A DNA stretch of 64,000 bases, from NCBI GenBank assembly GCA_015178975.1, contig WHVD01000080.1:330426-394425 (forward strand), in the 5' to 3' direction. The position numbers and the translations under genes were made by a program. The DNA is from Hysterangium stoloniferum. Its lineage: Eukaryota; Basidiomycota; Agaricomycetes; Hysterangiales; Hysterangiaceae. Within the stretch, counting starts at the first letter, position 1, and every line of letters starts with the position of its first letter. Shown piece after piece: positions 11,333-51,838 of this stretch. The notes under the pieces are model-generated. The model did no database searches. It saw nothing but the letters and a program-made list of their open reading frames with translations, and had not been told where the DNA came from.

Positions 11333-11371
11333 GACCCCCCTGATCTCACATGTCTCCAAAGAAAAAGAAAC

Positions 11372-11394
11372 AGAGAGAGAGAGAGAGAGAGAGA
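11372..11394. repeat. (GA)n microsatellite between pol stop and polypurine tract, A2
   Basis: Copia-A elements all carry this tract of differing length: also 12434-12460 (A3), 30982-31010 (A1) and 33656-33678 (A5). Confidence 0.9.
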
Positions 11395-11433
11395 CTTTGC
11401 TAAAGTACAGAGAGTAAGAAAGAAAACAAGAAA

Positions 11434-12394: not shown

Positions 12395-12429
12395 GACCCC
12401 CCTGATCTCACATGTCTCCAAAGAAAAAG

Positions 12430-12460
<31 letters not shown>

Positions 12461-12499
12461 CTTTGCTAAACTACAGAGAGTAAGAAAGAAAACAAGAAA

Positions 12500-15400
12500 C
12501 TAAGTCCTTATACCCATTCCATCACGGCAAAATTGAACCTTGGGAGTAGATAGAGGCTTGGTTAGAATATCTGCAATTTGTTCTGCAGTAGGAATATAGG
12601 AAGGAGTAATACACTTGGCATTTACAGCATCCCTAAGCCAATAGTAGCGCAGGTCAAGATGTTTCATCCTTCCATGATGCTCAGGGTTCTTAGCAACACT
12701 GATGGCAGACTGATTGTCAATGTGTAGAGTGGAGGGTTGATCAACTTGGTAGCCAAATTCACCTAGGATTTGCCGCATCCAGGCAATCTCCTTGCCAGCT
12801 TCTACAGCAGAGACAAATTCTGCTTCAGTTGTAGAAAGTGTGACAATACTTTGCAGTTTACTACTCCAGCCAATAGCACCTCCAGCCATCATAGTTACAT
12901 AACCACCAGTGGATCTTCCAGAATCAATGCAATCACCATGAGCAGCATCAGTGTATGTGGTGAATAGTTCAGAGCCACATTTACCAGAGTAATGCAACTT
13001 GTATTCCAGTGTACCTTTTAGGTATCTGAACAAGTGCTTCACTGCTGTCCAATGCTTTGGTCCAGGATTGCCATTAAAACGTGCCAAGTAGGACACAGTA
13101 TAAGCAATATCTGGACGGGTCATAGTAGCCAGGTATTGTAAAGACCCAACAGCACTGAGATAAGGAACACTACGCATGAAATCCACCTCTGCAGCATTCT
13201 CAGGACCCATTTCTTTGGAAAGAGATGTACCAGGTGTCATAGGTGTGAGAACTGGATGACAGTCAGACATGTTATAACGCTCAAGCATGTTGAGAATAAA
13301 TTGTCGCTGATCAAGAGTAAGGAGACGCTTAGAGCGATCTCTGCCAACTCCTACACCAAGTAAATAAACAGTGGATCCAAGATCACGGCATTTGAAATGC
13401 AGAGACAATTGCTTGACAGCTTTGTCAATGGCAAGAGTGGACTTGGATGCAAATGTAATATCATCAATGTAAATGGGTACAAAGATCTTCACCTCTCCAT
13501 TTGAATAAATGTAAACAGAGGTATCAGATTCAATTCGTTTGAACTCCATTTCAGTAAGTGCACCATGTAACTTGATGTTCCATTGACGAGATCCCTGCTT
13601 GAGACCATAAAGTGATTTCAAGAGTCTGAGAACCTTATTAGGACCTCCTTGATGGAAGCCTTCAGGTTGTCTCATATAGATTGTCTCATCAAGGTCACCA
13701 TGGGTGAAAGCAGCAGAAATGTCAACAGAGTGCAAGTCCATGTCTTCAATGGCAGCTAGGGCCAGAATCAAACGCAGAGTTGCAGGTCTAAAAGTAGGTG
13801 CAAACACTTCATTGTAGTCAATGCCAGGACGTTGTGAGTATCCTTTGGCAACAAGACGAGCTTTATAACGCTCAATTGTGCCATCTGCATTGTGTTTGAC
13901 TTTAAACACCCAACCAGAACCAATTGCCTTTGCACCAACTGGGAGGTCAACAAGTTCCCATGTCTTGTTTTCTACCAGTGTATTGTACTCTGCATTGATA
14001 GCCTCTTGCCATTTATCTGCATCATCACCTTTCATAGCCTGCTTGTAGTTTTGTGGATCAGCAGTTGAAGCTGTTCCAACAAACTGTACTTCCTCATAAT
14101 CAATGTCCTCATCATCATCTTCAGCTAGAGCTGGAGCTGGTTGTACCTTCCACCATTCACCAGGTTGCTTTGGAACACGCTGAGAGCGACGAAGCTGTGG
14201 TTCTGGTGCAGGTGGAGGAGGTAGTTGAATGGGTTCAGGAAGTGCAGGAGGTGCAGGAATCTGAACAGGAGGTGCAGGAATATAAGCAGGAGGTGCAGGA
14301 ATATGAGTAGGAGGGACAGAAATATCATTATCCCCCTCTACTTCTGGCACAAATAAAGGAATGTCAGAGTTTGGTATATTTGGGAAAAGCCTAATATTAG
14401 GCATTGGTCCAGTAGTAGATAGACCAGGAAAGTGGCGTTCATCAAATACAGCCCGTTCAGAGATGATAAACTTCTTTGTAACAGGGTTGTAGAATTGCCA
14501 ACCTTTGTATCCCACAGGATAGCCTAGAAAGAGGCATTTCTCCATGTGTGACTGAAGTGACTTCCTTTTGTCCCTTTGAATGTAAACATAGGCAGTACAC
14601 CCCCACACTCGCAAGTTGCTCACATCTGGTTTCTGCTTGTACCATTGCTCATAGGGTGTAGTTTTAGGCAATGGTGCAGTAGGTAGACGGTTCCAGACAT
14701 AAACATAAGATGTCACAGCATGGTTCCAGAAAGAAGCAGGCATACGCGCCTCATGCATCATGGCAGTGACATGATCAGCCATAGTGCGATTGGCTCTTTC
14801 TGCAACTCCATTCTGTTGAGGGCGATTGCGAGTAGTATGGCGGCGTACTATTCCACATTCATCTGTAAACTTGATAAAGGCATTTGACATATACTCCCCC
14901 CCTTTGTCATCCTGCAGAGCTTTGACCTTGCAACCCAGAAGATTCTCAGCATAAGCTTTATATCTCCTGAATGCTTCAAATGCATCACTCTTCCGTTTCA
15001 AGAACAGAACAGCTCGCAACTTGGTGCAATCATCAATAAAGGTTATCCAGTAGTGGTAACCCTCAGTTGTTTGCACAGGAAGTGGTCCATGTAGATCACT
15101 ATGAATAAGTTCAAGTGGTGTCTGAGAATGACTTGGTGAGATAGGGAATGGACTAGCAGTCATTTTGCCAGCAAGGCAAGGTTCACAGATAGGATCAGGT
15201 TGTTCCTTTGAGTCAAGGTTTAAGCCAACCACCAATCCTTCTCTGATCATCTTCTGGACATCAGCATAGCTGTGGTGTCCAAGACGGCAATGCCAGAGAT
15301 TGATATCAAAGGGAAGGGTGGAGACAGCACCAGCTTGCTCAATAATAGGTGCAGTGACACCATTGAGGATACCTGCATTCTGTGCAGTAACTCTGGCTGT

Positions 15401-16615
15401 AAACATAGTCTGTCCAGAGTGTTTGAAATGCATTGTTGTTCGATCAATGTGTATGAGTAGTCCTTTGTGCCTTGTGAGATAAAGACAAGACAGTAGGTTA
15501 CTGCGCAGTTGTGGTACATGCAAAACTCTTGTAAGCTCCACAGATCGCGATTTCCTTCCATTTATAACTGGGTTGAATACCACAGAACCAACTCCTGCAG
15601 AGTAGATAACAGTATGATCTGCTAACTTGATTGGGACACATAATGGTGTGTAGTTACGCAGCCAATGACTATGAGGAGTCATATGACTACTAGCACCTGT
15701 ATCAGCAAGCCAATCATAGTCAGAACCATTCTGCAGGGTGGAGGCATCGGATGAGGAGAAAGCAAGTGCATTTCCAGTATATTCAACATTGTTCTGAGAC
15801 ATTGTCTTCTGAGGCCTATTTGGCTTCTTCTTCCCTTTAGCACGATTGGTAAGGACACTCTCCTGTGCTTCCTGCTGCTTCTTAATGAAGCGATGACACT
15901 TGTCCATAGTATGGTTGGTCATAGAGCAGAAAGTACATTTGAGAAATGCAGTGGATGCATTGCCCTTTACAGTAAGTGCAGATGCAACTGCAGGAGCTTG
16001 TGAAGCCCGATGACGGCGTTGTGACTCTTCTGTGACAAAAGCTTGTTGGATAGTAGCCTTGTCCAGCTTGTCCATCAGAAGGAGAGAAGAGGCAAAGTTG
16101 TCAAACTGCTCAGGAAGTGCCCTGATCATTGCCATTGATGCAAGTTCCTCATCAAGTTTGGCAAGATCAAAATTCAATGGGCGCAGATCCTGGATGGCAC
16201 GGATGGCTAGATCCACCCGATTCATCAGAGTTTGCAAATTCTCATTCTCTTCCTTTCTGATGGAGAAGAGATCATCATACGCATTGAAGCGCATGCCAGG
16301 GCGCTTCTGCAAGTGTACATCACACAGACTGGTCCACATCTTGACCGGATCACCCTCAATCCCTTTAAGATGAATCTTTTGATCATCCTCAACACTCAAG
16401 TACATCCAACCTGCTGCTTTGTCTGACTTGAGAGCCCAAGCATCAAATGCAGTTTGCTGAGCCTCTGTGGGAGATGAGGATAGTGCAGGTGCAATGGAGG
16501 TGGCCTCAACAATGCGCCAGACACCCTGGGCACGAAGCCAAGCCTGCATCTCACCAGACCAGGTGTTGTAGTTATGAGAGTTGAGTTTAGGGAATTGGGG
16601 GATGGAAGATGACAT
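12500..16615 (-). CDS. A3 Gag-Pol polyprotein (Ty1/Copia), intact
   Basis: Single frame of about 1371 residues from the M-S-S-S-I-P-Q start (an in-frame Met nine codons upstream, at 16642, is the alternative). The order is the copia one. Gag has a CCHC knuckle (about 227-240). Protease has D-T-G-A-S-S (about 305). The integrase zinc region follows (L-W-H...H, C-x2-C), then the integrase core with Asp in H-S-D-L-H-G, Asp in Q-D-D-K-G-G and Glu in N-G-V-A-E-R. Reverse transcriptase has Y-I-D-D (about 1048) and RNase H has Asp/Glu/Asp motifs at the end. All catalytic residues I can place are present. One oddity: L-W-H-C-R where sister copies have L-W-H-R-R, beside the zinc ligands. There is no frameshift between gag and pol. 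It acts in virus-like particles and at chromosomal integration. Confidence 0.95.
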   Translation of the reverse strand: MSSSIPQFPKLNSHNYNTWSGEMQAWLRAQGVWRIVEATSIAPALSSSPTEAQQTAFDAWALKSDKAAGWMYLSVEDDQKIHLKGIEGDPVKMWTSLCDVHLQKRPGMRFNAYDDLFSIRKEENENLQTLMNRVDLAIRAIQDLRPLNFDLAKLDEELASMAMIRALPEQFDNFASSLLLMDKLDKATIQQAFVTEESQRRHRASQAPAVASALTVKGNASTAFLKCTFCSMTNHTMDKCHRFIKKQQEAQESVLTNRAKGKKKPNRPQKTMSQNNVEYTGNALAFSSSDASTLQNGSDYDWLADTGASSHMTPHSHWLRNYTPLCVPIKLADHTVIYSAGVGSVVFNPVINGRKSRSVELTRVLHVPQLRSNLLSCLYLTRHKGLLIHIDRTTMHFKHSGQTMFTARVTAQNAGILNGVTAPIIEQAGAVSTLPFDINLWHCRLGHHSYADVQKMIREGLVVGLNLDSKEQPDPICEPCLAGKMTASPFPISPSHSQTPLELIHSDLHGPLPVQTTEGYHYWITFIDDCTKLRAVLFLKRKSDAFEAFRRYKAYAENLLGCKVKALQDDKGGEYMSNAFIKFTDECGIVRRHTTRNRPQQNGVAERANRTMADHVTAMMHEARMPASFWNHAVTSYVYVWNRLPTAPLPKTTPYEQWYKQKPDVSNLRVWGCTAYVYIQRDKRKSLQSHMEKCLFLGYPVGYKGWQFYNPVTKKFIISERAVFDERHFPGLSTTGPMPNIRLFPNIPNSDIPLFVPEVEGDNDISVPPTHIPAPPAYIPAPPVQIPAPPALPEPIQLPPPPAPEPQLRRSQRVPKQPGEWWKVQPAPALAEDDDEDIDYEEVQFVGTASTADPQNYKQAMKGDDADKWQEAINAEYNTLVENKTWELVDLPVGAKAIGSGWVFKVKHNADGTIERYKARLVAKGYSQRPGIDYNEVFAPTFRPATLRLILALAAIEDMDLHSVDISAAFTHGDLDETIYMRQPEGFHQGGPNKVLRLLKSLYGLKQGSRQWNIKLHGALTEMEFKRIESDTSVYIYSNGEVKIFVPIYIDDITFASKSTLAIDKAVKQLSLHFKCRDLGSTVYLLGVGVGRDRSKRLLTLDQRQFILNMLERYNMSDCHPVLTPMTPGTSLSKEMGPENAAEVDFMRSVPYLSAVGSLQYLATMTRPDIAYTVSYLARFNGNPGPKHWTAVKHLFRYLKGTLEYKLHYSGKCGSELFTTYTDAAHGDCIDSGRSTGGYVTMMAGGAIGWSSKLQSIVTLSTTEAEFVSAVEAGKEIAWMRQILGEFGYQVDQPSTLHIDNQSAISVAKNPEHHGRMKHLDLRYYWLRDAVNAKCITPSYIPTAEQIADILTKPLSTPKVQFCRDGMGIRT

Positions 16616-16843
16616 TGTAGTATACACAGAGCAAACTCGCAAAGAAGTTGAGAAAAAAGGTATTTAACTCGAGGTCCAGACGGTAGTCTCGAGGGAAACT
16701 CAGCCTTAGTGGCGTACAAGTTCCTCCCTACTAGCAACAGCAATAAGGCTGGGCCTGGCAGGGGAATATAAAAGTATAGGCTGAAACTTACTCAAAAGAA
16801 GCGAGTTTGCAAAACGTTATACTGTACTAGAGCGCTTAGAGCG

Positions 16844-16857
16844 CGGGGCCCATAACC
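16844..16857 (-). other. A3 primer binding site (half initiator tRNA-Met)
   Basis: GGTTATGGGCCCCG on the minus strand directly after the 5' LTR. The leader continues CGCTCTAAGCGC, a short inverted repeat. Confidence 0.85.
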
Positions 16858-17206
16858 TGTTAAAAGTGACCTGTGACTTACTGTGACACGTGACACCCAC
16901 AAGTCTGAGGAAAGTTGTTACTATTCAGGTCACTAACTACAAGCTTATATATGTTATACATCAGTAGGCTTGTCAGCTGTCATAAGTGACAGCTGGTTGA
17001 CAGCTGGTTGACAGCTGTCATAAGTGACAGCTGATTGACAGCTTGAATGGAAACTGACAGCTGATTGACAGCTGGAATACAAAGTGACAGCTGATTGACA
17101 GCTGTCATGGGAAATGAACTGGGAATACCCTGGAACATGCTGGAAGCTTCTAGAAGGTTCTAGAAGGTTCCAGAAGGTTTTGGAGACAGTGGAGGCAGTT
17201 TTAACA
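16858..17206 (-). mobile_element. A3 5' LTR
   Basis: 349 bp, with the repeated CAGCTG units and TATATAAG promoter-like box (minus strand). Confidence 0.94.
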
Positions 17207-18152
17207 ATATCTGGACGGGTCATAGTAGCCAGGTATTGTAAAGACCCAACAGCACTGAGATAAGGAACACTATGCATGAAATCCACCTCTGCAGCATTCT
17301 CAGGACCCATTTCTTTGGAAAGAGATGTACCAGGTGTCATAGGTGTGAGAACTGGATGACAGTCAGACATGTTATAACGCTCAAGCATGTTGAGAATAAA
17401 CTGTCGCTGATCAAGAGTAAGGAGTCGCTTAGAGCGATCTCTGCCAACTCCCACACCAAGTAAATAAACAGTGGATCCAAGATCACGGCATTTGAAATGC
17501 AGGGACAATTGCTTGACAGCTTTGTCAATGGCAAGAGTGGACTTGGATGCAAATGTAATATCATCAATGTAAATGGGTACAAAGATCTTCACCTCTCCAT
17601 TTGAATAAATGTAAACAGAGGTATCAGATTCAATTCGTTTGAACTCCATTTCAGTAAGTGCACCATGTAACTTGATGTTCCATTGACGAGATCCCTGCTT
17701 GAGACCATAAAGTGATTTCAAGAGTCTGAGAACCTTATTAGGACCTCCTTGATGGAAGCCTTCAGGTTGTCTCATATAGATTGTCTCATCAAGGTCACCA
17801 TGGGTGAAAGCAGCAGAAATGTCAACAGAGCGCAAGTCCATGTCTTCAATGGCAGCTAGGGCCAGAATCAAACGCAGAGTTGCAGGTCTAAAAGTAGGTG
17901 CAAACACTTCATTGTAGTCAATGCCAGGACGTTGTGAGTATCCTTTGGCAACAAGACGAGCTTTATAACGCTCAATTGTGCCATCTGCATTGTGTTTGAC
18001 TTTAAACACCCAACCCGAACCAATTGCCTTTGCACCAACTGGAAGATCAACAAGTTCCCATGTCTTGTTCTCTACCAGTGTATTATACTCTGCATTGATA
18101 GCTTCTTGCCATTTATCTGCATCATCACCTTTCATAGCCTGCTTGTAGTTTT
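17207..18152 (-). pseudogene. A2 pol piece 4: reverse transcriptase
   Basis: Holds the Copia-A reverse transcriptase from K-A-I-G-S-G-W-V-F to the T-R-P-D-I motif, including Y-I-D-D. It is bounded by the ATATC duplication of A3 and the GTTTT duplication of B1. Open throughout. Confidence 0.9.
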
Positions 18153-18457
18153 TGTTGAAACAGTTGAATAACTCTTGACAAACACCCTGTGAGTGTGAGG
18201 AAAGTAAACACTTAATGTATTCAACTGTGAAATAACTACATACCTGTGAGTGTGAGGAAAGTAAACACTAAGGAGACTTTCCCACACCCACAGCGGAGTA
18301 TACTACAGGGTGCTTACCTAAGCACCTACACATCAGTTACCTTACTAGGTAACTCACTCAATACTGCACCTACAGTGCTGGGAAAAATACTACAAATATC
18401 AGAAAAATATAGGGAACATCATAGACTATGTAAGAGCTGTAATATCATACTCTAACA
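18153..18457 (-). mobile_element. B1 3' LTR
   Basis: Minus strand begins TGTTAGAGTATGAT and ends TTTCAACA. It is preceded by a purine-rich tract CAGGTGGGAG (minus strand, 18458-18467). Confidence 0.93.
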
Positions 18458-18478
18458 CTCCCACCTGATGAGACAGCT

Positions 18479-21400
18479 CTATGCTAGTCCCAGTAGTTTT
18501 CGTAAGTATTCTACCTTTGGCTTAGCCAATGGTTTTGTCAATAAATCAGCAGGCATCTCTGAAGTAGGGAGATGAACAACTTTGATCTTCCCACTATCAA
18601 CTTCCTGCCTTAACCAATATGTTCTCAAATCCAGATGCTTCATACGGCCATGATGTTCAGGATCTCTGGCAACTGCAATAGAAGATTGGTTGTCAAGATA
18701 CAAAGTGGATGCAGTCTTTTGAGGATATCCCAATTCCTCAAATAAGTTTCGCAACCATAGCACTTCCTGACCAGCTGACACTGCTGCAATATACTCTGCT
18801 TCAGTAGTAGAGAGAGTTACAATAGTCTGGAGTTTGCTCTGCCAGCTAATGGCTCCAGTACCCATCTTAACCACATATGCACCAGTAGATTTTCCAGTTG
18901 ACTTATCACCTCCATGGTCAGCATCTGAATAAGACACAAACAATTCCCTGTCATTACTAGGGCCAAAGGTCAAGCCCAAGTCAAGGGTGCCTTTGAGATA
19001 TCGAAAGAGATGTTGTACTGCTAGCCAATGAGCCTTTCCTGGATTGTGATTAAATCTGGCTAATACTCCAACAGTATAGGCAATGTCTGGACGAGTGGCA
19101 ACAGCCAAATACATAAGAGAACCAACAGCATGGATGTATGGAATGTCCTTCATGTATGCAATCTCTTCAGGAGACACTGGAGCCTGGTCTTTACTCAATT
19201 TTGAGTTAGGTATCATAGGTGTACCAATGGGATTGCAGTCAGCAAGACCATAACGCTGTAACATGTCCAAGATGTATTGACGCTGTGATAGAGTAATAGT
19301 ACGCTTTGTCCTGTCTCTTTCAATGCCAACACCTAACAAGTAAGAAGTAGGACCAAGATCATGCAATTTGAAGTGGCTCTTTAGATCATCTTTGAGCTTT
19401 TTGATAGCCTCCTTGGATTTAGATGCAATAGTCATGTCATCTACAAATACTGGTATAATGACTTTGACATCACCCTTTTGGAAGACCCAAATGCTATGAT
19501 CGCATAGCACTTGTTTGAAACCCAAACTGAGCAGGACAGCATTCAACTTCTTGTGCCAGATACGAGGTGACTGGCGTAAACCATATAGTCCTTTCAGAAG
19601 AAGTAAGAACTCATCACGAGCACCTTGGTGAAAACCTTCAGGCTGCTGCAAGTATACTTCCTCTTCAAGTTCACCATTCAAGAATGCAGAGGAGATATCT
19701 ACACTCTCAAGTTCCATGTCCTCCAGTGCAGCCAATGCTAGGACAGCACGCAAAGTGGCCCATTTGGCAGTAGGAGCAAAGGTATCAGTGAAGTCAAACC
19801 CTGGTCGTTGTGCATAGCCTTTTGCAACAAGACGAGCTTTGAACTTGTCAATTGACCCATCCTTCTTACGCTTGATCACAAACACCCAACGAGAGCCAAT
19901 AGCTTTACGACCCTCAGGTAGTTTAGCAAGGCGAAAAGTGCCATTTTCAAGCAGGGATTGCATTTCTGCATATGCAGCGTCATACCACTTGTCAGCATCA
20001 GGACTTTGTAAGGCCTCTTTGAGAGTTCTCGGTGCATCATCATGAGCACTGGCCTTGTAGGCAAACTCAAAGGCTTCATCCACACCAATGTAAAGATCTC
20101 CCTCACTGGCAGCTAGGGCTTCTTCCTCAGACTCAACTGGAGGAGGAGAATGTAGTGGAGAATCCTCTGCCTCATCACTGGACTCAACTACAGGAGTAGA
20201 TTCTCTATAGTTGTGGATGTGAGCAGGGTCAACTTGCCAGAAACGCTTAGGAGGAACTCTGTTTCTGGGTGGATTGCGACGTGGTTGAGGAGGAGGACTC
20301 GGTGAACGTTCAGAATGTTCAGAATTAGAATCAGAGTTGGAACTAGGACCAGGAGGCAAAGCATTATTCTGACCATCTCCCACTGGATTTGGTTCCTGTG
20401 GAGCTCCCATCTGATTAGGCTGGGCTCCCACCTGAATAGACCTAGAGGGTCCAGGAATAAACAAATCAATAAATTGTGGAGTATCAGGAAGAACATCAGG
20501 AGCAGTAGGAGTAGAAGGTATGGCAGGTTTAGACAAGCCTGGTAAGACTCTCTCATCAAAGACAGCATTATTACTGATAATAGTCTTCTTAGTCAAGGGA
20601 TTGTAAAACATCCAACCCTTATAATCTGGAGGATATCCAATAAAGACACATTTCTGTGTATGAGAGCCAAGTCCAATACGTTGATCCTTCTGTACATGCA
20701 CATAAGCAGTACAGCCAAATACCCTAAGATGTGATACTTCTGGTTTCCTACTATGCCAAACAGTATAAGGCACAGAATGCTTAAGAGCAGTGGTAGGTGA
20801 GCAGTTGCGCACATGAGTAATGGCAATGACAGCATGTCCCCAGAATGAGGGAGGGAGGTGGGATTCAGCCATAATTGAAGTAGCCCCTTCTTCCAATGTT
20901 CTGTTGAAGCGTTCAGCAACCCCATTCTGATGTGGTTCATTCCGCACAGTATGCTGCCGGCTGATGCCAGCAGTGGAAAGGAAGGTATCAAACTCCTTAG
21001 ACATATATTCTCCACCCTTGTCATCTCTGAATATCTTGATCTTCTGACCAAGCAAGTTCTCCACTTTAGCCTTATATTGCTTAAATGCCTGAAAGGCATC
21101 ACTCTTATTTTTGAGTAATGCAATCGAAGCATAGCGTGAGGCATCATCAATGAAAGTGATCCAGTAGCGAAACCCTTCCACAGTTTGTGTAGGCAAGGGA
21201 CCATGAACATCACTGTGAATGAGTGCAAGTGGTTTAGTATAGCGTGTTGTTGCTATTTTATTAATCACTCTGTTCTGTTTTCCAGCCAAACAAGGTTCAC
21301 AAATAGGATCAGGAGACGTGTGAGAGTCAATCTTTATCCCACCAACCAAATCACCTTTGAGGAGCTTCTGGATATCGGCATGATTGAGATGATTAAAGCG

Positions 21401-22723
21401 ACGATGCCAAAGTGTGGAGTCCAAGGGACAGGTTGTAACAAGACCTGCATAATCCGTCATAGGTACCGTCATTCCATCCAAATAGGCCTGGTTATGTTCA
21501 TTGACTGTGGCAGTGAAACGCAAGACCTTTCTCAAATAGAAAGACATGGTGGAATGAAAGATAGAGACACGGAAATTCTTTCTCTTTGTCAAATACAAGA
21601 CAGAGAGGAGGTTACTTGTGAGATGGGGAACATGGAGAACCCTTTCAAACTCTATTATTACATTTCCATTTCCTTTAGGCTTAAACCGCACTGCTCCTAT
21701 CCCTGCAGACATAACTATTTGTCCATTTGCAACTTGGATAGGTGTTTGAAACGGGGTATAACTTGAAAACCAATGACGATGGGGAGTCATGTGCGAAGAA
21801 GCACCTGTGTCAGCAGTCCAGTCAGAACTAGCATTGACAAGGAGAGCACAAGATGGATCGGTAGAGTCAGGGATAGAAACACTTGCATTTCCAGCACTCT
21901 CTGGTTTCTTCTCCTCTGATACCTTGTCAGACGCATTAGCTTTGTCAGCCTTAGCAGTCTTTCTTTCTTTATACTCCTTTTTCTTCTGCTCAACTTTGGC
22001 CTTTGCCTGTTTCTGTGCATTTGCATACTCGTAACAATTGTCTTGGGTGTGGGTGGAACCATTGCAGAATGTGCAAGGAACTTTACCAGAAGTGTTGGAA
22101 GTCTTTGACACAATTTTGTTCGCCGTCTCTAAACTTCTGGCAGACTGCAAACTCTCTTGTGATGCAAAGTGAGTTTTGACATCAGAGAATGTGATAGCAG
22201 TATTCATCATTAAAGATGAAGTCCACACAGAGTCAGATTCAGGCAGAGAACGAAGTAAAGTGAGAGCAGCAAGCTCATCATCCAGCATGGCAAGAGTGTA
22301 CCCCTTTGGACGCAAGTTCTGGACACGTGCACAAACCTTGTCAACACGACTCATTAATGAAGTTAGAGATTCATCAGGTTCCTTCCGAATATTAAAGAGG
22401 TCATTGTAGGCACTAAAACGAACTGCAGGGAGTTGTTTATTATGTGCCTTATCAATTTTAGACCACATATCATCAGGACCATCATCAATGTCAACATGGG
22501 TGCGCTGTGTAGGTCCAAGAGAGCGCCATATGATACCAGCTGCTTTATTGGAGCGCTCCAACCAGGCAGACTGTAAACTAGTCTCACTAGGTTGTTTTTC
22601 TTTGCCAGTGGCAATAGAGAGACAGTTCTCCATACGCAAAAGACCAATTACGTCATGTCTCCAATCCTCATAATTATTCTCTCCCAATATGATACTACGT
22701 TTGTAAGTATCACTGGATGCCAT
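18479..22723 (-). CDS. B1 Gag-Pol polyprotein (Ty1/Copia), intact
   Basis: Single frame of 1414 residues starting M-A-S-S-D-T. Gag carries a CCHC knuckle (C217 to C230) followed by a very basic stretch (about 238-275) likely to bind nucleic acid. Protease has D-T-G-A-S-S (305-310). Integrase has H-S-D-V-H-G (about 500), D-D-K-G-G-E and H-Q-N-G-V-A-E-R. A proline/serine-rich linker with runs of acidic residues follows. Reverse transcriptase has F-V-D-D (about 1094), and RNase H has the Asp/Glu/Asp set and ends at L-T-K-P. It is clearly a different family from Copia-A, sharing motif order but not close sequence. All catalytic motifs look intact, so it is a candidate active element. Confidence 0.95.
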   Translation of the reverse strand: MASSDTYKRSIILGENNYEDWRHDVIGLLRMENCLSIATGKEKQPSETSLQSAWLERSNKAAGIIWRSLGPTQRTHVDIDDGPDDMWSKIDKAHNKQLPAVRFSAYNDLFNIRKEPDESLTSLMSRVDKVCARVQNLRPKGYTLAMLDDELAALTLLRSLPESDSVWTSSLMMNTAITFSDVKTHFASQESLQSARSLETANKIVSKTSNTSGKVPCTFCNGSTHTQDNCYEYANAQKQAKAKVEQKKKEYKERKTAKADKANASDKVSEEKKPESAGNASVSIPDSTDPSCALLVNASSDWTADTGASSHMTPHRHWFSSYTPFQTPIQVANGQIVMSAGIGAVRFKPKGNGNVIIEFERVLHVPHLTSNLLSVLYLTKRKNFRVSIFHSTMSFYLRKVLRFTATVNEHNQAYLDGMTVPMTDYAGLVTTCPLDSTLWHRRFNHLNHADIQKLLKGDLVGGIKIDSHTSPDPICEPCLAGKQNRVINKIATTRYTKPLALIHSDVHGPLPTQTVEGFRYWITFIDDASRYASIALLKNKSDAFQAFKQYKAKVENLLGQKIKIFRDDKGGEYMSKEFDTFLSTAGISRQHTVRNEPHQNGVAERFNRTLEEGATSIMAESHLPPSFWGHAVIAITHVRNCSPTTALKHSVPYTVWHSRKPEVSHLRVFGCTAYVHVQKDQRIGLGSHTQKCVFIGYPPDYKGWMFYNPLTKKTIISNNAVFDERVLPGLSKPAIPSTPTAPDVLPDTPQFIDLFIPGPSRSIQVGAQPNQMGAPQEPNPVGDGQNNALPPGPSSNSDSNSEHSERSPSPPPQPRRNPPRNRVPPKRFWQVDPAHIHNYRESTPVVESSDEAEDSPLHSPPPVESEEEALAASEGDLYIGVDEAFEFAYKASAHDDAPRTLKEALQSPDADKWYDAAYAEMQSLLENGTFRLAKLPEGRKAIGSRWVFVIKRKKDGSIDKFKARLVAKGYAQRPGFDFTDTFAPTAKWATLRAVLALAALEDMELESVDISSAFLNGELEEEVYLQQPEGFHQGARDEFLLLLKGLYGLRQSPRIWHKKLNAVLLSLGFKQVLCDHSIWVFQKGDVKVIIPVFVDDMTIASKSKEAIKKLKDDLKSHFKLHDLGPTSYLLGVGIERDRTKRTITLSQRQYILDMLQRYGLADCNPIGTPMIPNSKLSKDQAPVSPEEIAYMKDIPYIHAVGSLMYLAVATRPDIAYTVGVLARFNHNPGKAHWLAVQHLFRYLKGTLDLGLTFGPSNDRELFVSYSDADHGGDKSTGKSTGAYVVKMGTGAISWQSKLQTIVTLSTTEAEYIAAVSAGQEVLWLRNLFEELGYPQKTASTLYLDNQSSIAVARDPEHHGRMKHLDLRTYWLRQEVDSGKIKVVHLPTSEMPADLLTKPLAKPKVEYLRKLLGLA

Positions 22724-23310
22724 GACACGTCAATATCCACCAAGAATTTAACTTAAAAAGAACTAAGTAATTGGACTCGCAGTTGTAACACCGCCTTGCT
22801 CAACAGGGTTACCGTGATATTGCAAGGAAGGTAAAAACAAAGGCCCACTGAAGAGCACAATGCCAACAGTTCAAGTTCAATGTATCTAAAAGACCGTGTT
22901 AAAAAGGGAAAATGACGTGGCACAGACCCAGATGATACTGTGAAGTGCTTGAGGTGTGAGGGAAGAGTGTGACTGGAGAGAGAGGTGACAGGGTGTGACA
23001 GGGTGAGTCACAAGGGTGATAAAAATGAAGTTGCCCAAAAAAGGGAAATTGAGCGACGACAAGCGATTTGGAGCGTGGGAATATATTTCCTTTTATGGAC
23101 TCGGGCGCCTAAATGGGCGAAAAATGCGCACAATCACAGGTGTGAGATGTGAGTTGAAAAAGCGACCAAATCAGGCCAAAATCCAAGGAGATATAACCAA
23201 AATAAAATCCAAACGCAATGTAGAGTGTTTTGGACAAGTAGAAGTTGTCAGAAAAGATGTGCAAAGTGATGGATTGCGCAGATGACAACTGGATGTACCG
23301 GTTTAGAAGC
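22724..23310 (-). other. B1 untranslated leader
   Basis: About 590 bp between the primer site and the start codon, without a supported gene. The equivalent region of B2 contains TATAAAA (59454-59460); B1 has CATAAAA there. Confidence 0.7.
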
Positions 23311-23324
23311 CGGGGCCCATAACC
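23311..23324 (-). other. B1 primer binding site (half initiator tRNA-Met)
   Basis: Same GGTTATGGGCCCCG as in Copia-A and TRIM-1, although the flanking leader differs (continues GCTTCTAAACCGG). Confidence 0.85.
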
Positions 23325-23629
23325 TGTTGAAACAGTTGAATAACTCTTGACAAACACCCTGTGAGTGTGAGGAAAGTAAACACTTAATGTATTCAACTGT
23401 GAAATAACTACATACCTGTGAGTGTGAGGAAAGTAAACACTAAGGAGACTTTCCCACACCCACAGCGGAGTATACTACAGGGTGCTTACCTAAGCACCTA
23501 CACATCAGTTACCTTACTAGGTAACTCACTCAATACTGCACCTACAGTGCTGGGAAAAATACTACAAATATCAGAAAAATATAGGGAACATCATAGACTA
23601 TGTAAGAGCTGTAATATCATACTCTAACA
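23325..23629 (-). mobile_element. B1 5' LTR
   Basis: 305 bp; contains two copies of the direct repeat TGTGAGTGTGAGGAAAGTAA. Confidence 0.93.
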
Positions 23630-24365
23630 GTTTTGTGGATCAGCAGTTGAAGCTGTTCCAACAAACTGTACTTCCTCATAATCAATGTCCTCATCATCAT
23701 CCTCAGCTAGAGCTGGAGCTGGTTGTACTTTCCACCATTCACCCGGTTGCTTTGAAACACGCTGAGAGCGACGAAGTGGTGGTTCTGGTGCAGGTGGAGG
23801 AGGCAGTTGAATGGGTTCTTCAACCCCAGAAGGAGGCAAAGGTGGTTCAGGAAGTGCAGGAACATGAGCAGGAGGTATAGGAATATGAGCAGGAGGTGCA
23901 GGAATATGAGTAAGAGGAACAGAAATATCATTATCCCCCTGTACTTCTGGCACAAATGAAGAAATGTCAGAGTGTGGTGTATTTGGGACAAGCCTGATAT
24001 TAGGCATTGGTCCAGTAGTAGATAGACCAGGAAAGTGGCGTTCATCAAATACAGCCCGTTCAGAGATGATAAACTTCTTTGTAACAGGGTTGTAGAATTG
24101 CCAACCTTTGTATCCCACAGGATAGCCTAGAAAGAGGCATTTCTCCATGTGTGACTGAAGTGACTTCCTTTTGTCCTTTTGAAAGTAAACATAGGCAGTA
24201 CACCCCCACACTCGCAAGTTACTCACATCTGGTTTCTGCTTGTACCATTGCTCATAGGGTGTAGTTTTAGGTAATGGTGCCGTAGGCAGACGGTTCCAGA
24301 CATAAACATAAGATGTCACAGCATGGTTCCAGAAAGAAGCAGGCATACGCGCCTCATGCATCATG
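23630..24365 (-). pseudogene. A2 pol piece 3: integrase C-terminus and linker
   Basis: Covers the region after the integrase core, including the proline-rich linker (P-A-P-P repeats) and the acidic run before reverse transcriptase. The linker has a slightly different repeat count from A3. Open within itself; cut by B1 and TRIM-1. Confidence 0.88.
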
Positions 24366-24387
24366 TGTTAAAGGCATAGAAAAGAAT

Positions 24388-24462
24388 TGACCCAGCCTGG
24401 GATTGAACCAAGGACCTCCTGGCTTTATATGCAGGTGCTCTTAACCACTGAGCTACTGGACC
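24388..24462 (-). tRNA. tRNA-like sequence in TRIM-1 LTR (24.4 kb copy)
   Basis: In the 3' LTR relative to the element sense; cloverleaf and boxes intact. Confidence 0.68.
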
Positions 24463-24704
24463 TATGGTCTAGTATTATATGATGGATTATATATACATAT
24501 ATATAAGGACTTATGATGCCAACTTGTGCTCTTATAACAGCTTATATAACTGATGGCAAACCTGGGTCTTATAACAGTGTGTCACATATAGATATTGTAT
24601 TTTCCCATTTCTAACACTTCCCCTGAAATCAATATCTAGTCTATACCCTATGCAGCGCACCAAGCTCACGGGGCCCATAACCTGTTAAAGGCATAGAAAA
24701 GAAT

Positions 24705-24779
24705 TGACCCAGCCTGGGATTGAACCAAGGACCTCCTGGCTTTATATGCAGGTGCTCTTAACCACTGAGCTACTGGACC
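24705..24779 (-). tRNA. tRNA-like sequence in TRIM-1 LTR (24.7 kb copy)
   Basis: In the 5' LTR of the same element; the same sequence as its partner. Confidence 0.68.
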
Positions 24780-24933
24780 TATGGTCTAGTATTATATGAT
24801 GGATTATATATACATATATATAAGGACTTATGATGCCAACTTGTGCTCTTATAACAGCTTATATAACTGATGGCAAACCTGGGTCTTATAACAGTGTGTC
24901 ACATATAGATATTGTATTTTCCCATTTCTAACA

Positions 24934-25803
24934 TCATGGCAGTGACATGATCAGCCATAGTGCGATTGGCTCTTTCTGCAACTCCATTCTGTTGAGGGCG
25001 ATTGCGAGTAGTATGGCGGCGTACTATTCCACATTCATCTGTAAACTTGATAAAGGCATTTGACATATACTCCCCCCCCTTTGTCATCCTGCAGAGCTTT
25101 GACCTTGCAACCCAGAAGATTCTCAGCATAAGCTTTGTATCTCCTGAATGCTTCAAATGCATCACTCTTCCGTTTTAAGAACAGAACAGCTCGCAACTTG
25201 GTGCAATCATCAATAAAGGTTATCCAGTAGTGGTAACCCTCAGTTGTTTGCACAGGAAGTGGTCCATGTAGATCACTATGAATAAGTTCAAGTGGTGTCT
25301 GAGAATGACTTGGTGAGATAGGGAATGGACTAGCAGTCATTTTGCCAGCAAGGCAAGGTTCACAGATAGGATCAGGTTGTTCCTTTGAGTCAAGGTTTAA
25401 GCCAACCACCAATCCTTCTCTGATCATCTTCTGGACATCAGCATAGCTGTGGTGTCCAAGACGGCGATGCCAGAGATTGATATCAAAGGGAAGGGTGGAG
25501 ACAGCACCAGCTTGCTCAATAATAGGTGCAGTGACACCATTGAGGATACCTGCGTTCTGTGCAGTAACTCTGGCTGTAAACATAGTCTGTCCAGAGTGTT
25601 TGAAATGCATTGTTGTTCGATCAATGTGTATGAGTAGTCCTTTGTGCCTTGTGAGATAAAGACAAGACAGTAGGTTACTGCGCAGTTGTGGTACATGCAA
25701 AACTCTTGTAAGCTCCACAGATCGCGATTTCCTTCCATTTATAACTGGGTTGAATACCACAGAACCAACTCCTGCAGAGTAGATAACAGTGTGATCTGCT
25801 AAC
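24934..25803 (-). pseudogene. A2 pol piece 2: protease end, zinc region, integrase core
   Basis: Carries the pre-integrase zinc region (H-R-R-L-G-H-H, C-E-P-C) and the integrase core with H-S-D and N-G-V-A-E-R. A run of eight C at about 25072-25079 (seven in A3) shifts the frame just at the D-D-K-G-G motif. A2 is therefore not translatable even ignoring its insertions, unless this homopolymer is a sequencing error. Confidence 0.88.
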
Positions 25804-26096
25804 TGTTAGGATCTGCAAGCCTGGGGGATCACAGTGCGATGACTCTCGGCACTTGGAGCGAATGCCACTAAGGACTGAGCGGGTAGAAGTAAACCGGTGA
25901 TATAGCTAGGTTTCCAGATGAGGTCCTACTCTCATCTGGATGTAACTATATACTAAGCTACATGGTCTGTGCACTTGGTTTGGAACTAAGGGAACACTAA
26001 ACTAAATATAGCTAATCACATGTGAACCAGACCGGAAAAATACATTCTCAATACGAGGTATGATTTAATACTAATCGTAATCATCATACTCTAACA
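25804..26096 (-). mobile_element. LTR-F, solo LTR of an otherwise unseen family
   Basis: 293 bp with TGTTAG...TAACA ends and target duplication CTAAC (25799-25803, 26097-26101). Read on the minus strand it begins TGTTAGAGTATGAT, the same 14 bases as Copia-B LTRs, then diverges. No other copy or interior is present here. Strand is inferred from that similarity. Confidence 0.85.
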
Positions 26097-27090
26097 CTAA
26101 CTTGATTGGGACACATAATGGTGTGTAGTTACGCAGCCAATGACTATGAGGAGTCATATGACTACTAGCACCTGTATCAGCAAGCCAATCATAGTCAGAA
26201 CCATTCTGCAGGGTGGAGGAATCGGATGAGGAGAAAGCAAGTGCATTTCCAGTATATTCAACATTGTTCTGAGACATTGTCTTCTGAGGCCTATTTGGCT
26301 TCTTCTTCCCTTTAGCACGATTGGTAAGGACACTCTCCTGTGCTTCCTGCTGCTTCTTAATGAAGCGATGACACTTGTCCATAGTATGGTTGGTCATAGA
26401 GCAGAAAGTACATTTGAGAAATGCAGTGGATGCATTGCCCTTTACAGTAAGTGCAGATGCAACTGCAGGAGCTTGTGAAGCCCGATGACGGCGTTGTGAC
26501 TCTTCTGTGACAAAAGCTTGTTGGATAGTAGCCTTGTCCAGCTTGTCCATCAGAAGGAGAGAAGAGGCAAAGTTGTCAAACTGCTCAGGAAGTGCCCTGA
26601 TCATTGCCATTGATGCAAGTTCCTCATCAAGTTTGGCAAGATCAAAATTCAATGGGCGCAGATCCTGGATGGCACGGATGGCTAGATCCACCCGATTCAT
26701 CAGAGTTTGCAAATTCTCATTCTCTTCCTTTCTGATGGAGAAGAGATCATCATACGCATTGAAGCGCATGCCAGGGCGCTTCTGCAAGTGTACATCACAC
26801 AGACTGGTCCACATCTTGACCGGATCACCCTCAATCCCTTTAAGATGAATCTTTTGATCATCCTCAACACTCAAGTACATCCAACCTGCTGCTTTGTCTG
26901 ACTTGAGAGCCCAAGCATCAAATGCAGTTTGCTGAGCCTCTGTGGGAGATGAGGATAGTGCAGGTGCAATGGAGGTGGCCTCAACAATGCGCCAGACACC
27001 CTGGGCACGAAGCCAAGCCTGCATCTCACCAGACCAGGTGTTGTAGTTATGAGAGTTGAGTTTAGGGAATTGGGGGATGGAAGATGACAT
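26097..27090 (-). pseudogene. A2 gag-pol piece 1: Gag and protease start
   Basis: Open from M-S-S-S-I-P-Q (27090) through the CCHC knuckle and D-T-G-A-S-S-H to the LTR-F insertion. Very close to A3. This piece would encode a complete Gag. Confidence 0.9.
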
Positions 27091-27318
27091 TGTAGTATAC
27101 ACAGAGCAAACTCGCAAAGAAGTTGAGAAAAAAGGTATTTAACTCGAGGTCCAGACGGTAGTCTCGAGGGAAACTCAGCCTTAGTGGCGTACAAGTTCCT
27201 CCCTACTAGCAACAGCAATAAGGCTGGGCCTGGCAGGGGAATATAAAAGTATAGGCTGAAACTTACTCAAAAGAAGCGAGTTTGCAAAACGTTATACTGT
27301 ACTAGAGCGCTTAGAGCG

Positions 27319-27332
27319 CGGGGCCCATAACC
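27319..27332 (-). other. A2 primer binding site
   Basis: GGTTATGGGCCCCG on the minus strand, adjoining the 5' LTR. Confidence 0.85.
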
Positions 27333-27681
27333 TGTTAAAAGTGACCTGTGACTTACTGTGACACGTGACACCCACAAGTCTGAGGAAAGTTGTTACTATT
27401 CAGGTCACTAACTACAAGCTTATATATGTTATACATCAGTAGGCTTGTCAGCTGTCATAAGTGACAGCTGGTTGACAGCTGGTTGACAGCTGTCATAAGT
27501 GACAGCTGATTGACAGCTTGAATGGAAACTGACAGCTGATTGACAGCTGGAATACAAAGTGACAGCTGATTGACAGCTGTCATGGGAAATGAACTGGGAA
27601 TACTCTGGAACATGCTGGAAGGTTCTAGAAGGTTCTAGAAGGTTCCAGAAGGTCTTGGAGACAGTGGAGGCAGTTTTAACA
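27333..27681 (-). mobile_element. A2 5' LTR
   Basis: 349 bp. It shares the diagnostic GGAATACTCTGG and AAGGTCTTGG variants with the 3' LTR at 10984, supporting the pairing of these two LTRs. Confidence 0.92.
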
Positions 27682-39257: not shown

Positions 39258-39508
39258 TGTTAGAAATGGGAAAATACAATATCTATATGTGACAGACTGT
39301 TATAAGACCCAGGCTTGCCATCAGTTATATAAACTGTTATAAGAGCACAAGTTGGCATCACAAGTCCTTATATATATGTATATATAATCCATCATATAAT
39401 ACTAGACTATAGGTCCAGTAGCTCAGTGGTTAAGAGCACCTGCATATAAAGCCAGGAGGTCCTTGGTTCAATCCCAGGCTGGGTCAATTCTTTTCTATGC
39501 CTTTAACA
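39258..39508 (+). mobile_element. TRIM-1 solo LTR in G3 gag
   Basis: 251 bp, TGTTAGAAATGG to CTTTAACA, target duplication AAAAG (39253-39257, 39509-39513). It is the only plus-oriented TRIM-1 in the window. The gag frame reads into it for about 28 codons before a stop. Confidence 0.95.
39412..39486 (+). tRNA. tRNA-like sequence in TRIM-1 solo LTR
   Basis: 75 nt, starts GGTCCAG and ends CTGGGTCA, then ATTCTTTTC. A box and B box intact. Confidence 0.7.
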
Positions 39509-42020: not shown

Positions 42021-42230
42021 TGTGAGGAGTATGCTTTTACCACAGTATCATTGTGGTGAAACACTCCTTTTATTTCATTTATATTTTACATATTCTATTC
42101 ATATTTTTCTATCTTTCATATTCTTCAAATATCGCATATTTCATTAGTTTGAAGCATTGTGTATACTTGTGGGTGCACTCAGCACCAATTAGAACTCAGA
42201 CACACTTTTGTTAAAGGTATAGAAAAGAAT

Positions 42231-42305
42231 TGACCCAGCCTGGGATTGAACCAAGGACCTCCTGGCTTTATATGCAGGTGCTCTTAACCACTGAGCTACT
42301 GGACC
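42231..42305 (-). tRNA. tRNA-like sequence in TRIM-1 LTR (42.2 kb copy)
   Basis: Cloverleaf preserved; downstream segment has GGTATAG for GGCATAG. Confidence 0.68.
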
Positions 42306-42547
42306 TATAGTCTAGTATTATATGATGGATTATATATACATATATATAAGGACTTATGTTACCAACTTGTGCTCTTATAACAGTTTATATAACTGATGGC
42401 AAACCTGGGTCTTATAACAGTCTGTCACATATAGATATTGTATTTTCCCATTTCTAACACTTCCCCTGAAATCAATATCTAGTCTATACCCTATGCAGCG
42501 CACCAAGCTCACGGGGCCCATAACCTGTTAAAGGCATAGAAAAGAAT

Positions 42548-42622
42548 TGACCCAGCCTGGGATTGAACCAAGGACCTCCTGGCTTTATATGCAGGTGCTC
42601 TTAACCACTGAGCTACTGGACC
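42548..42622 (-). tRNA. tRNA-like sequence in TRIM-1 LTR (42.5 kb copy)
   Basis: Same offset and boxes as its partner. Confidence 0.68.
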
Positions 42623-43072
42623 TATGGTCTAGTATTATATGATGGATTATATATACATATATACAAGGACTTATGATGCCAACTTGTGCTCTTATAACAG
42701 TTTATATAACTGATGGCAAGCCTGGGTCTTATAACAGTCTGTCACATATAGATATTGTATTTTCCCATTTCTAACAACTTTAACCCAAGAACCACCACTC
42801 GTAAGACATAAACTAGGTCTACTACGAGCGGTGATCAGGGTAACGTGTCAGCTACCACTTAGGTAGCATTATCTGAACTACTGAACACTTCTGGCCTCGA
42901 ACTGTAATAGTCGAGGCCTCCACTCGAACCATCGCACTCGTTGACTCCTTCGTCATCTTGTGCTCTTTCTCTCACTTTCTCTTATATTGCACCGAATAGG
43001 TCAATATTCTTCCTTTCTACTCATTTCTTCGTATATAGAACGGTCAGAACTTCTGCCACTCTTCACAGAGAC

Positions 43073-44085: not shown

Positions 44086-46399
44086 GTCCTTAATCCTCAA
44101 TCCTCCGGACTGCCCCCAGAACGGGAACTCGCAGACGATTTCGACCCGGCAGGTCTTAAAACGTCAGAGGTTGCCACCACGGAAATGTTTCATGTGGAAG
44201 ATCTGCATAAGCTTGTTAACTTAGGACCTGACATCCCTACTGATGTCTCCTCCCGCTTGGAGTTGGTATTAACTAAGAATGTCCTAGCCTTCGGAGTGGA
44301 CGGGTGACTGGGACAAGTGGATGTCAAGGTCAATGTCCCATTGAAAGAGGGCGCGCAACCTATTTCAATGTCAATGTTCCCAACCTCCCCAGCTAATAGG
44401 AAAGTCATTGATGAACAAATGGATACTTGGTTCCAACAGGGAGTAATTGAACCGTCCAAGAGTCCTTGGGGGGCACCAGCCTTTGTCATCTATCGCAACG
44501 GGAAACCACGAGTAGTGATCGACTATAGAAAGTTGAACAGTCTAACAGTTCCCGACGAATTCCCACTGCCACGCCAGTCGGAAATCATGCAAGCACTTTC
44601 GGGCTCCAACATCTTGTCTTCCTTCGATGCACTAGCCGGTTTTACCCAACTTGAAATGTTAGAGGAAGACAAGCCGAAGACCACCTTCAGATCCCATCGA
44701 GGACTGTGGCAATTCAGGAGAATGCCCTTTGGACTTCGTAATGGACCTTCTATATTCCAAAGGGTTATGCAAACCGTACTTGCACCTTACTTATGGATAT
44801 TCTGCCTGGTTTATATTGACGACATTGTGATCTTTTCTAAGACATGGGACGATCATCTAGAACATTTAGATCAGGTTTTACAAGCCATAATTGCTGCGGG
44901 AATCACTCTCTCGCCCAAAAAGTGCTATGTGGGGTATAATTCGATTCTACTACTAGGACATAAGGTGTCTAGACTTGGCTTTTTGACCCATCAAGAAAAG
45001 GTCGCCGCTATATTAGAATTGGCGATGCCCTCTAAGATAGCAGATCTTCAACGTTTTCTAGGAATGGTTCTGTACTTCTCCGCGTACATACCATTTTACT
45101 CCTGGACGGTCACTCCACTTTTCAACCTCTTGAAGAAAGGAGTTCATTGGAATTGGGATTCTGAACACACCCGAGCTTTTGAGGACATCAAGGTTGCGTT
45201 GAGCTCAGCTCCAGTACTCGGACACCCCACGAGCGGTATGCCTTATCAGTTATACACAGACGCTTCGGACTTTGCGCTAGGATGTTGTGTCCAACAAATA
45301 CAGAAAATGACGCTTAAAGACCTTAAGGATACGAAAATTTATGCCCAAGCACGAGCAGCCTTCGATCAATCACGAGATGTGCCCATTTTCGTTACTCGTT
45401 ATAAAGCCAAGGAGCTGGAATTCACCTGGACGGATTCCTGGGCCGCAGATTTTGACGACACCAGTGTCACGGTCGAACACGTTATCGCCTATTGGAGCTA
45501 TACGCTCAAGAAAGCAGAATGTAACTATTCAGCCACAGAGCGAGAAGCGTTAGCCGCTAAAGAAGGATTAGTCCATTTCCAGCCCTTTATCGAAGGCGAA
45601 CATATCCTTCTGATCACTGACCATGTGGCGTTACAATGGGCCAGATCTTATGAGAATACTAATCGTCGACTGGCCGCATGGGGGGTGGTATATGCTGCAT
45701 ACCCTGGTCTGGAAATCCTACATAGAGCAGGACGAATACATAGCAAAGTTGACCCACTGTCCAGACTTCCTCGAGTACCGGACTATGTTAGCCCCACGAG
45801 AGATGACCTTTTACCGATCGTAGCAGATTCTTATAACCAGAATGACAATGAGACGTTATGGGAGAAGAAACCAGCGGAAAAAGCCATCTTTCTCACTCAT
45901 CACGAGTTAGTCGAACCAGTCGGAACCATGGAAGAGGTCCCCCAAACGAAATGGGACTTGCACAATCTCCCCAGAAATGATGAAACCGATGAAGTGAACT
46001 TTACTCTCTCGAATCCACAATTGCTTATAGAGATCAACGCTAAAGAACTTCGCGATGGATACCAGAAGGATCCCACCTTCAGAAATCATTACGCCACCGA
46101 TCCCATTTCTCCAAACATGGTAACTACTCCTTTGCATTATTTCATCGGCAAGAATAAGTTATTGTTCTTTCGAGATTCGGACTGGAAAAGTCGAATCTGC
46201 ATTCCTAGCAGCATGACGACAACCATACTCAAGCTGATACATGATAATCCTTTCGAAGGAGCTCATGCAGGCAGCCACAGGCTCTTTAATCTGATGAAAG
46301 ACCGTTTCTTCTGGCCGAGGATGTTGCATGACTGTGTGGTGTACGCTCGCAGCTGCGACATATGCCAGAAAACTAAAATTGATCATTCCGCTCGACAAG
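44086..46399 (+). pseudogene. G3 pol: reverse transcriptase, RNase H, integrase start
   Basis: After TGA at 44305-44307 (CGA in G1 and G2) the frame is open for about 690 codons. Reverse transcriptase has Y-I-D-D near 44813 and RNase H has Y-T-D-A-S-D-F intact. The integrase zinc region has H-D-N-P...H and C-D-I-C. It is cut by the 5' LTR of G2, whose left target sequence is ACAAG (46395-46399). No continuation of G3 is found in the window. Confidence 0.87.
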
Positions 46400-51177: not shown

Positions 51178-51316
51178 TGTTAGATTATATAATACCAACC
51201 ATTGTTCCAACTGGGACCATATGGTGTACAGCTCTGAGTTCAGTGTGTATATGATCTAATAGGAATGGCGCTTAGGGTTATATCCTTAAGTACAGTGTAA
51301 GACCAAACCTACCCAA

Positions 51317-51389
51317 GGTCAGATGGTGTAGTGGTTAACACCTTCGTTATGTAATCGAGAGATCCTGGGTTCAATCCCCAGTCTGGCTA
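51317..51389 (+). tRNA. tRNA-like sequence in TRIM-2 5' LTR
   Basis: Acceptor GGTCAGA/TCTGGCT, D arm, and a perfect T stem CTGGG/CCCAG with TTCAATC loop. A box TGGTGTAGTGG and B box GGTTCAATCC are intact. The anticodon arm is loose; with U33 assigned, the anticodon reads GTA (Tyr-like). TTTT follows 5 nt after the end. Confidence 0.7.
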
Positions 51390-51728
51390 TTCATTTTCTA
51401 CATTACTCATGTTTTCTAACATGGTAGCAACTCCAAGGTTAACTTGGTTTGGCTGTATTTGTGTGCTTGGTATAGTGGACAAGTCTGGACGAAAAAGAGC
51501 CAGAGAGGACCTATACTGGCATATGATATAGTTAATACCCAAGATCGAACCTGGAGTGTAGAATGAACAATGCTGGCATTAAGGGGGTGTGTTAGATTAT
51601 ATAATACCAACCATTGTTCCAACTGGGACCATATGGTGTACAGCTCTGAGTTCAGTGTGTATATGATCTAATAGGAATGGCGCTTAGGGTTATATCCTTA
51701 AGTACAGTGTAAGACCAAACCTACCCAA

Positions 51729-51801
51729 GGTCAGATGGTGTAGTGGTTAACACCTTCGTTATGTAATCGAGAGATCCTGGGTTCAATCCCCAGTCTGGCT
51801 A
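51729..51801 (+). tRNA. tRNA-like sequence in TRIM-2 3' LTR
   Basis: Exact counterpart of the 5' LTR copy, 412 bp downstream. Confidence 0.7.
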
Positions 51802-51838
51802 TTCATTTTCTACATTACTCATGTTTTCTAACACTGCC

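Follow-up and report, generated by a model that had tools for sequence, protein, structure and literature searches.

The closest described relatives of the element analysed here are the Helenus retrotransposons (PMC10886601), described in that paper from Pucciniales, Agaricus, Coprinopsis, Amylostereum, several animal phyla and Selaginella. The fungal members make 5-bp duplications, have iMet anticodon-loop primer sites and are assigned a Copia helper by inference, the tie being primer-site likeness and, in one pair, likeness of the interior (PMC10886601). Cassandra, a plant TRIM, likewise carries a Pol III-type promoter in its LTR, with 5S rRNA rather than tRNA sequence, and forms tandem LTR-interior arrays (PMC7215508); according to PMC10886601 it is transcribed and has no known helper. 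Other gene-less plant TRIMs have been paired with named autonomous LTR elements as putative helpers, the partners sharing LTR and internal sequence (Gao 2016, PMC4717578). Complexes ascribed to template switching, for which mixed packaging was proposed, are described as having a shared inner LTR, an outer target duplication and outer LTRs that are alike (Sabot and Schulman 2007, PMC1950507).

A stretch of 64,000 nucleotides from Hysterangium stoloniferum (contig WHVD01000080.1; hereafter the window) holds two families, T1 and T2, that are Helenus-type in the features tested. RPB2 pieces from the 111-Mb genome agree with this host, showing 100% identity to Hysterangium stoloniferum over 753 aa, with Gautieria, Ramaria and Clathrus following at 96%; the Copia protein has distant matches only, Sparassis crispa at 49% being the best named one. 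Because that category was published in 2024 as Helenus/TRIMp3 (PMC10886601), it is not new, and the first-pass annotation, which had presented T1 as a new fungal analogue of Cassandra, was right in describing a protein-less fungal TRIM with a tRNA-derived module fixed in the LTR and is not supported as to the novelty of its kind. T1 resembles Helenus as described there in size, in its tRNA-like LTR module, in the primer site and purine tract of its short interior and in the 5-bp duplications seen in fungi; further points of resemblance are the proposed Copia partner, the solo LTRs, the occurrence of several families per genome and the conserved A and B boxes. The comparison is one of features. 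T1 differs from Helenus in its host, Hysterangium not being named in the main text of PMC10886601, and in that its helper is put forward on the strength of reciprocal hybrids within the genome itself instead of from primer-site or interior likeness. Our literature search for later work on Helenus/TRIMp3 returned nothing related beyond that paper. T1 is set apart from Cassandra by its LTR, in which no 5S rRNA was found, tRNA alone reaching the Rfam gathering score across the window, and by being known here from sequence alone.

The full T1 unit comprises a 251-bp LTR, a 66-67-bp interior and a second 251-bp LTR (569 bp) and encodes no proteins; it is thus under 1000 bp, with two LTRs, a primer site and a purine tract, as expected of a TRIM. 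The LTRs run from TGTTAG to TTTAACA with 98-100% identity among the window copies, and the interior opens with the primer site GGTTATGGGCCCCG and closes with the purine tract CAGGGGAAG. These copies bear out the TG...CA LTRs, interior length, primer site and purine tract given in the first-pass annotation, and its central observation, of a protein-less LTR element with a tRNA-like module in the LTR, is confirmed. The window contains 11 T1 LTRs, rather than the ten counted previously: five in the array at 4967-6489, one at 10668-10916, two at 24366-24933, one at 39258 and two at 42209-42776. The copy at 39258-39508 had been presented as the element itself and is a solo LTR with AAAAG on either side; it contains no CpG. 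The T1 loci with target duplications are as follows.

39258-39508, plus strand: T1 solo LTR, 251 bp, target duplication AAAAG, between Gypsy gag-like frames (named by eye)
4967-6489, minus strand: tandem T1 array of five LTRs and four 67-bp interiors, outer target duplication CTAGA
5536-5602, minus strand: one T1 interior of that array, 67 bp, primer site GGTTATGGGCCCCG at 5602-5589 and purine tract CAGGGGAAG at 5544-5536
24366-24933, minus strand: complete T1 element, LTRs identical, target duplication TCATG
42209-42776, minus strand: complete T1 element, LTRs differing at 6 sites, target duplication ACTTT

All four of these duplications, as previously listed, are exact; the fifth T1 locus, at 10668, is a hybrid and has none. 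Joining the flanks of three T1 insertions, 42209 not among them, and of one T2 insertion recovered an empty site each time: every joined sequence aligned to a paralogous stretch of the window across all 120 of its columns, gapless, at 85-100% identity. The five-LTR array has the marks of the complexes described in PMC1950507: elements that share an inner LTR, an outer duplication, outer LTRs only 2 differences apart, and inner LTRs 5-10 differences from the outer ones.

The tRNA-like module of the T1 LTR occupies one fixed position in all 11 window copies. The parts of the LTR that bear on its transcription are listed for the solo copy.

39368-39389, plus strand: TA-rich stretch lying 23-44 nt before the module, possibly a TATA element for TFIIIB or Pol II
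39412-39486, plus strand: tRNA-like module, 75 nt, Rfam RF00005 at 48.6 bits, called by ARAGORN as Tyr with anticodon ata
39419-39429, plus strand: A box TAGCTCAGTGG, LTR positions 162-172
39465-39475, plus strand: B box GGTTCAATCCC, LTR positions 208-218
39491-39494, plus strand: TTTT run, candidate weak Pol III terminator, LTR positions 234-237, ending 14 nt before the LTR end

The cloverleaf-capable sequence reported for every LTR, with its A box, B box and TTTT, is recognized in all 11 copies by both programs, the Rfam tRNA model scoring each at 48.6 bits (E 2.4e-7) and ARAGORN assigning all to the one type. In the Rfam alignment the cloverleaf pairing is standard, and the D loop, the anticodon arm and the variable region each hold additional bases. 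The A and B boxes are both preserved in all 53 distinct T1 LTR copies from the window and the fetched loci L001-L030, as they are in every T2 copy examined (37 of 37); faster decay of the boxes than of the rest of the LTR, which the first-pass annotation had named as refuting its reading, is thus not seen. Of the sites that vary in more than one T1 copy, none falls among the 75 of the module and 15 fall among the 176 elsewhere in the LTR (Fisher p 0.0067); for variable sites of any kind the counts are 4 of 75 and 32 of 176 (p 0.0095). These classes were compared after looking, and the copies, being the best matches to the query, form a young and biased sample. Private changes are not significantly fewer in the module (4 of 75 versus 17 of 176, p 0.33). 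Such a pattern would arise if new lineages were founded solely by copies whose module is intact.

The fixed position had also been taken to argue against a random SINE insertion, and random insertion is indeed rejected by it. As an argument against any SINE origin it does not hold, since Kojima proposes that Helenus-like elements arise by SINE insertion into an LTR (PMC10886601), and an old SINE origin of the module is possible. T1 itself is not built as a tRNA-SINE, which would lack LTRs, carry a non-LTR tail and insert by target priming; it has TG...CA LTRs, a primer site, a purine tract and 5-bp duplications.

Across the genome T1 has at least 62 LTR matches, one of them incomplete; the scoring covered 40 of 319 candidates, which makes this a minimum. 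Thirty fetched LTR loci resolve into 27 distinct elements, and matching 5-bp flanks are present in 16, two of which are the window's own. The 11 scored as unmatched include L005, a hybrid whose own ends match, and L008, two solo LTRs merged by the script.

The second family has the same architecture on an otherwise dissimilar LTR.

51178-51833, plus strand: T2 element, 244-bp LTRs, 168-bp interior, target duplication CTGCC, primer site TGGTAGCAACTCC
51317-51389, plus strand: T2 tRNA-like module (Thr-tgt) in the 5' LTR, with a second copy at 51729-51801

By eye, this T2 copy is inserted in a Gypsy-like pol frame. A first look across the genome gave 424 T2 candidates, and matching 5-bp flanks were found in 20 of 25. 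Module-specific conservation fails in T2, where shared-variable sites number 4 of 73 in the module and 6 of 171 in the remainder of the LTR (p 0.49). All four shared-variable module sites lie in the anticodon arm; the shared variants in the module involve C/T and G/A substitutions within CpG, as methylation decay would produce. We also note a two-mismatch match to the T2 LTR-end/primer-site string at 46114-46130.

The first-pass annotation had T1 borrowing Copia proteins. This is most likely so, and the junctions described below allow a partner, Copia-1, to be proposed by name. The elements concerned lie on the minus strand.

12046-17206, minus strand: Copia-1, the proposed helper, identical 349-bp LTRs, target duplication GATAT, primer site GGTTATGGGCCCCG
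12500-16663, minus strand: Copia-1 open frame, 1387 aa, with Retrotran_gag_2, gag_pre-integrs and RVT_2
18153-23629, minus strand: Copia-2, the control pair, with the same 14-nt primer site and target duplication GTTTT
10984-11332, minus strand: Copia-1 LTR joined at the primer site to a T1 interior, hybrid junction 10984/10983
10917-10983, minus strand: T1 interior, its upstream end at the primer site fused to the Copia-1 LTR
10668-10916, minus strand: T1 LTR, aligned over 249 of 251 positions, that closes the Copia-1/T1 hybrid on its 3' side

The integrase core (rve) of Copia-1 scores 31.1 bits, just below the Pfam cut-off of 32.6. Over the join of LTR and primer site T1 and Copia-1 have 21 nt in common, TTTAACAGGTTATGGGCCCCG, of which Copia-2 shares 18. 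The primer site is common to all three, and we take it to resemble the tRNA-iMet anticodon-loop type reported for Helenus. A gapless pattern search for a tRNA-iMet gene across the genome gave no match.

Fusions between T1 and Copia-1 occur in both directions. A Copia-1 LTR end leads into a T1 interior at 10 places genome-wide among 81 Copia-1-type LTR-end/primer-site strings, and a T1 LTR end leads into a Copia-1 interior at 6 places (at most one mismatch) among 66 T1-type strings, two places being counted in both totals; reversed-pattern controls gave 0 in each case. The other 18 rows of the latter search have three mismatches: 14 have the known GTGAGCT interior start of T1, two lie on contig C4 between T1 LTRs and two read GTTCGCT. 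A join of a T1 LTR to a Copia-2 interior would appear at three mismatches in this genome-wide search, and none was found. The 10 Copia-1-LTR/T1-interior joins comprise five different strings, and the 16 joins may not all be independent, some perhaps having been copied from others. Structure was read beyond the junction string in 6 of the 16, at four loci: four of the 10 in one direction (the window, two in L005, and L094) and two of the 6 in the other (L013 and L094). L005 contains two hybrids of opposite direction, one within the Copia-1 LTR of the other, with the inner one flanked by CTGTC on both sides. L094 reads Copia-1 LTR, T1 interior, T1 LTR, Copia-1 interior, and L013 reads T1 LTR, then Copia-1 interior, both without the far end. 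Judged by spacing, a putative composite of T1 LTR, Copia-1 interior, Copia-1 LTR, T1 interior and T1 LTR extends from G000:C2:477284 to about 482107.

From the fusions at the shared primer site we infer joint reverse transcription of the T1 and Copia-1 RNAs, and the reciprocal fusions point to co-replication of the two. Intermolecular second-strand transfer at that site would give exactly such joins, in both directions. The main rival for the joins is DNA recombination between integrated copies at the shared 21 nt, which we regard as rather unlikely. It would suit the loci read, in which T1 and Copia-1 are nested in each other, and the window hybrid, whose want of an outer target duplication fits recombination between LTRs as a later step. 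Against it stand the two directions of joining and the brevity of the shared stretch, 21 nt being short for homologous recombination. Copia-2, with its 18 shared nt and a similar number of joins (90), also argues against it: in the 68 that are readable, the other 22 being omitted from the count, the Copia-2-type LTR end leads to a Copia-2-type interior 62 times, to other interiors 6 times and never to T1 or Copia-1, joins of a Copia-1 LTR to a Copia-2 interior lying outside the comparison. The matched 5-bp flanks of one hybrid, that in L005, tell against recombination too. That match counts for less because it lies in a Copia LTR where CTGTC-like repeats abound, and a search of the 94 loci and the window did not turn up the target string in uninterrupted form. 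Recombination probably helped, later on, to shape the hybrid in the window. Copia-2 is not favoured as helper, its readable joins including no hybrids.

The window hybrid closes a nest at 9755-27681, in which an older Copia-1 holds a T1 element, Copia-2 and a full Copia-1. The inverted Copia-1 that surrounds it lacks about 540 bp, a loss of the kind expected from recombination between LTRs. Dasheng and RIRE2 of rice reportedly form a pair of the kind that we propose for T1 and Copia-1, a non-autonomous LTR element with a named helper. The LTRs of Dasheng are described as highly similar to those of its helper (PMC1940013), whereas those of T1 and Copia-1 are not. T1 and Copia-1 likewise differ from the plant TRIM/helper pairs of PMC4717578 in being linked by the primer-site region and the hybrids only, and the hybrids differ from the complexes of PMC1950507 in joining a gene-less TRIM to a Copia, with dissimilar LTRs, at the primer site. 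Among the matches listed in a literature search on TRIM hybrids and strand transfer, no title concerned TRIM/helper hybrids.

The tRNA-derived stretch in the T1 LTR is probably an internal Pol III promoter. Pol III transcription of T1 is something we infer from the anatomy only, and a functional Pol III promoter is likewise not demonstrated for the published Helenus elements, as described in PMC10886601. The status of the TTTT run as a proper terminator is weakened by its length. It is four T in 52 of 53 T1 copies (seven T in the other) and in all 37 T2 copies, whereas the first T-run is at least five in 9 of 11 non-Lys tRNA genes and 18 of 19 Lys-type tRNA-like repeat copies, all fetched from the genome; in S. 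pombe, Pol III termination is given as about 90% at five T and negligible at four (PMC4982682). The run is thus probably a weak terminator, and a T1 transcript ending there, as first proposed, is doubtful, which does not put Pol III transcription as such in doubt. If Pol III acts as in S. pombe, transcription would pass the 5' LTR and often the 3' LTR too; a full-length T1 template would need such read-through of the 5' LTR, which fits a weak four-T stop.

Alternatively, the TA-rich stretch at LTR 111-132 could drive Pol II transcription of T1, with the module a passenger or in another role, such as RNA folding or packaging. We consider this unlikely. In its favour, the stretch, TATATATATGTATATATAATCC, precedes the module by 23-44 nt; Copia-1, whose frame exceeds 4 kb, would be expected to use Pol II; a four-T run works poorly as a Pol III stop in S. 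pombe; and T2 gives no sign of module-specific conservation. Against it, the boxes are intact in 53 of 53 and 37 of 37 copies of two families with otherwise dissimilar LTRs, and the TA stretch does not exclude Pol III because the Lys-type tRNA-like repeats carry a similar AT-rich stretch about 21-30 nt upstream. The AT content upstream of the 11 non-Lys tRNA genes has no clear TATA position. The Lys-ctt-type repeat, which has an intron-like insert and mostly a T5 run, was seen among L036-L060 at G000:C112:987097-1219099, with many copies within about 230 kb of C112, and on C68, C526, C290 and C410; candidate identities are a SINE, a further TRIM and arrays of tRNA genes. As a reading of the 75-nt module, a functional tRNA gene that travels with the element is very improbable and is rejected, the standard pairs and score notwithstanding, because the ata anticodon of a Tyr call and the arms with their extra bases are irregular, and PMC10886601 holds that the majority of the Helenus modules it describes do not function as tRNA.

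Considered together, these data make it quite probable that T1 is a Helenus-type TRIM, probably with an internal Pol III promoter in its LTR, whose RNA is copied together with that of Copia-1. Pol III would start near LTR position 150, as the anatomy suggests, and read through the four-T run of the 5' LTR, giving an RNA of some 0.4 kb or more, bounded on either side by a repeat. Half of a tRNA-iMet, the putative primer, would prime at GGTTATGGGCCC, and the reverse transcriptase and integrase of Copia-1 would copy and insert T1. The two RNAs would be reverse-transcribed together, most simply in one particle, where intermolecular second-strand transfer at the shared primer site could join them either way. 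A stronger version can be put forward tentatively: that one Copia, and not a sister with the same primer site, packages a non-coding Pol III transcript as a true second template, with a four-T stop tuned for read-through of the 5' LTR and strand transfer swapping LTRs in both directions. If this is true, Copia-1 copies with a Pol III-type LTR would arise naturally from the LTR swaps.

Beyond what PMC10886601 describes, what is new is a helper proposed from reciprocal hybrids, with T1 and T2 as members in a host outside its main text. Modules of this type are argued in that paper to inflate tRNA gene counts. For a T1-type element, reciprocal hybrids in one genome point to one helper, and it becomes directly testable, in a non-pathogenic fungus or laboratory yeast, whether a Pol III RNA enters Copia particles.
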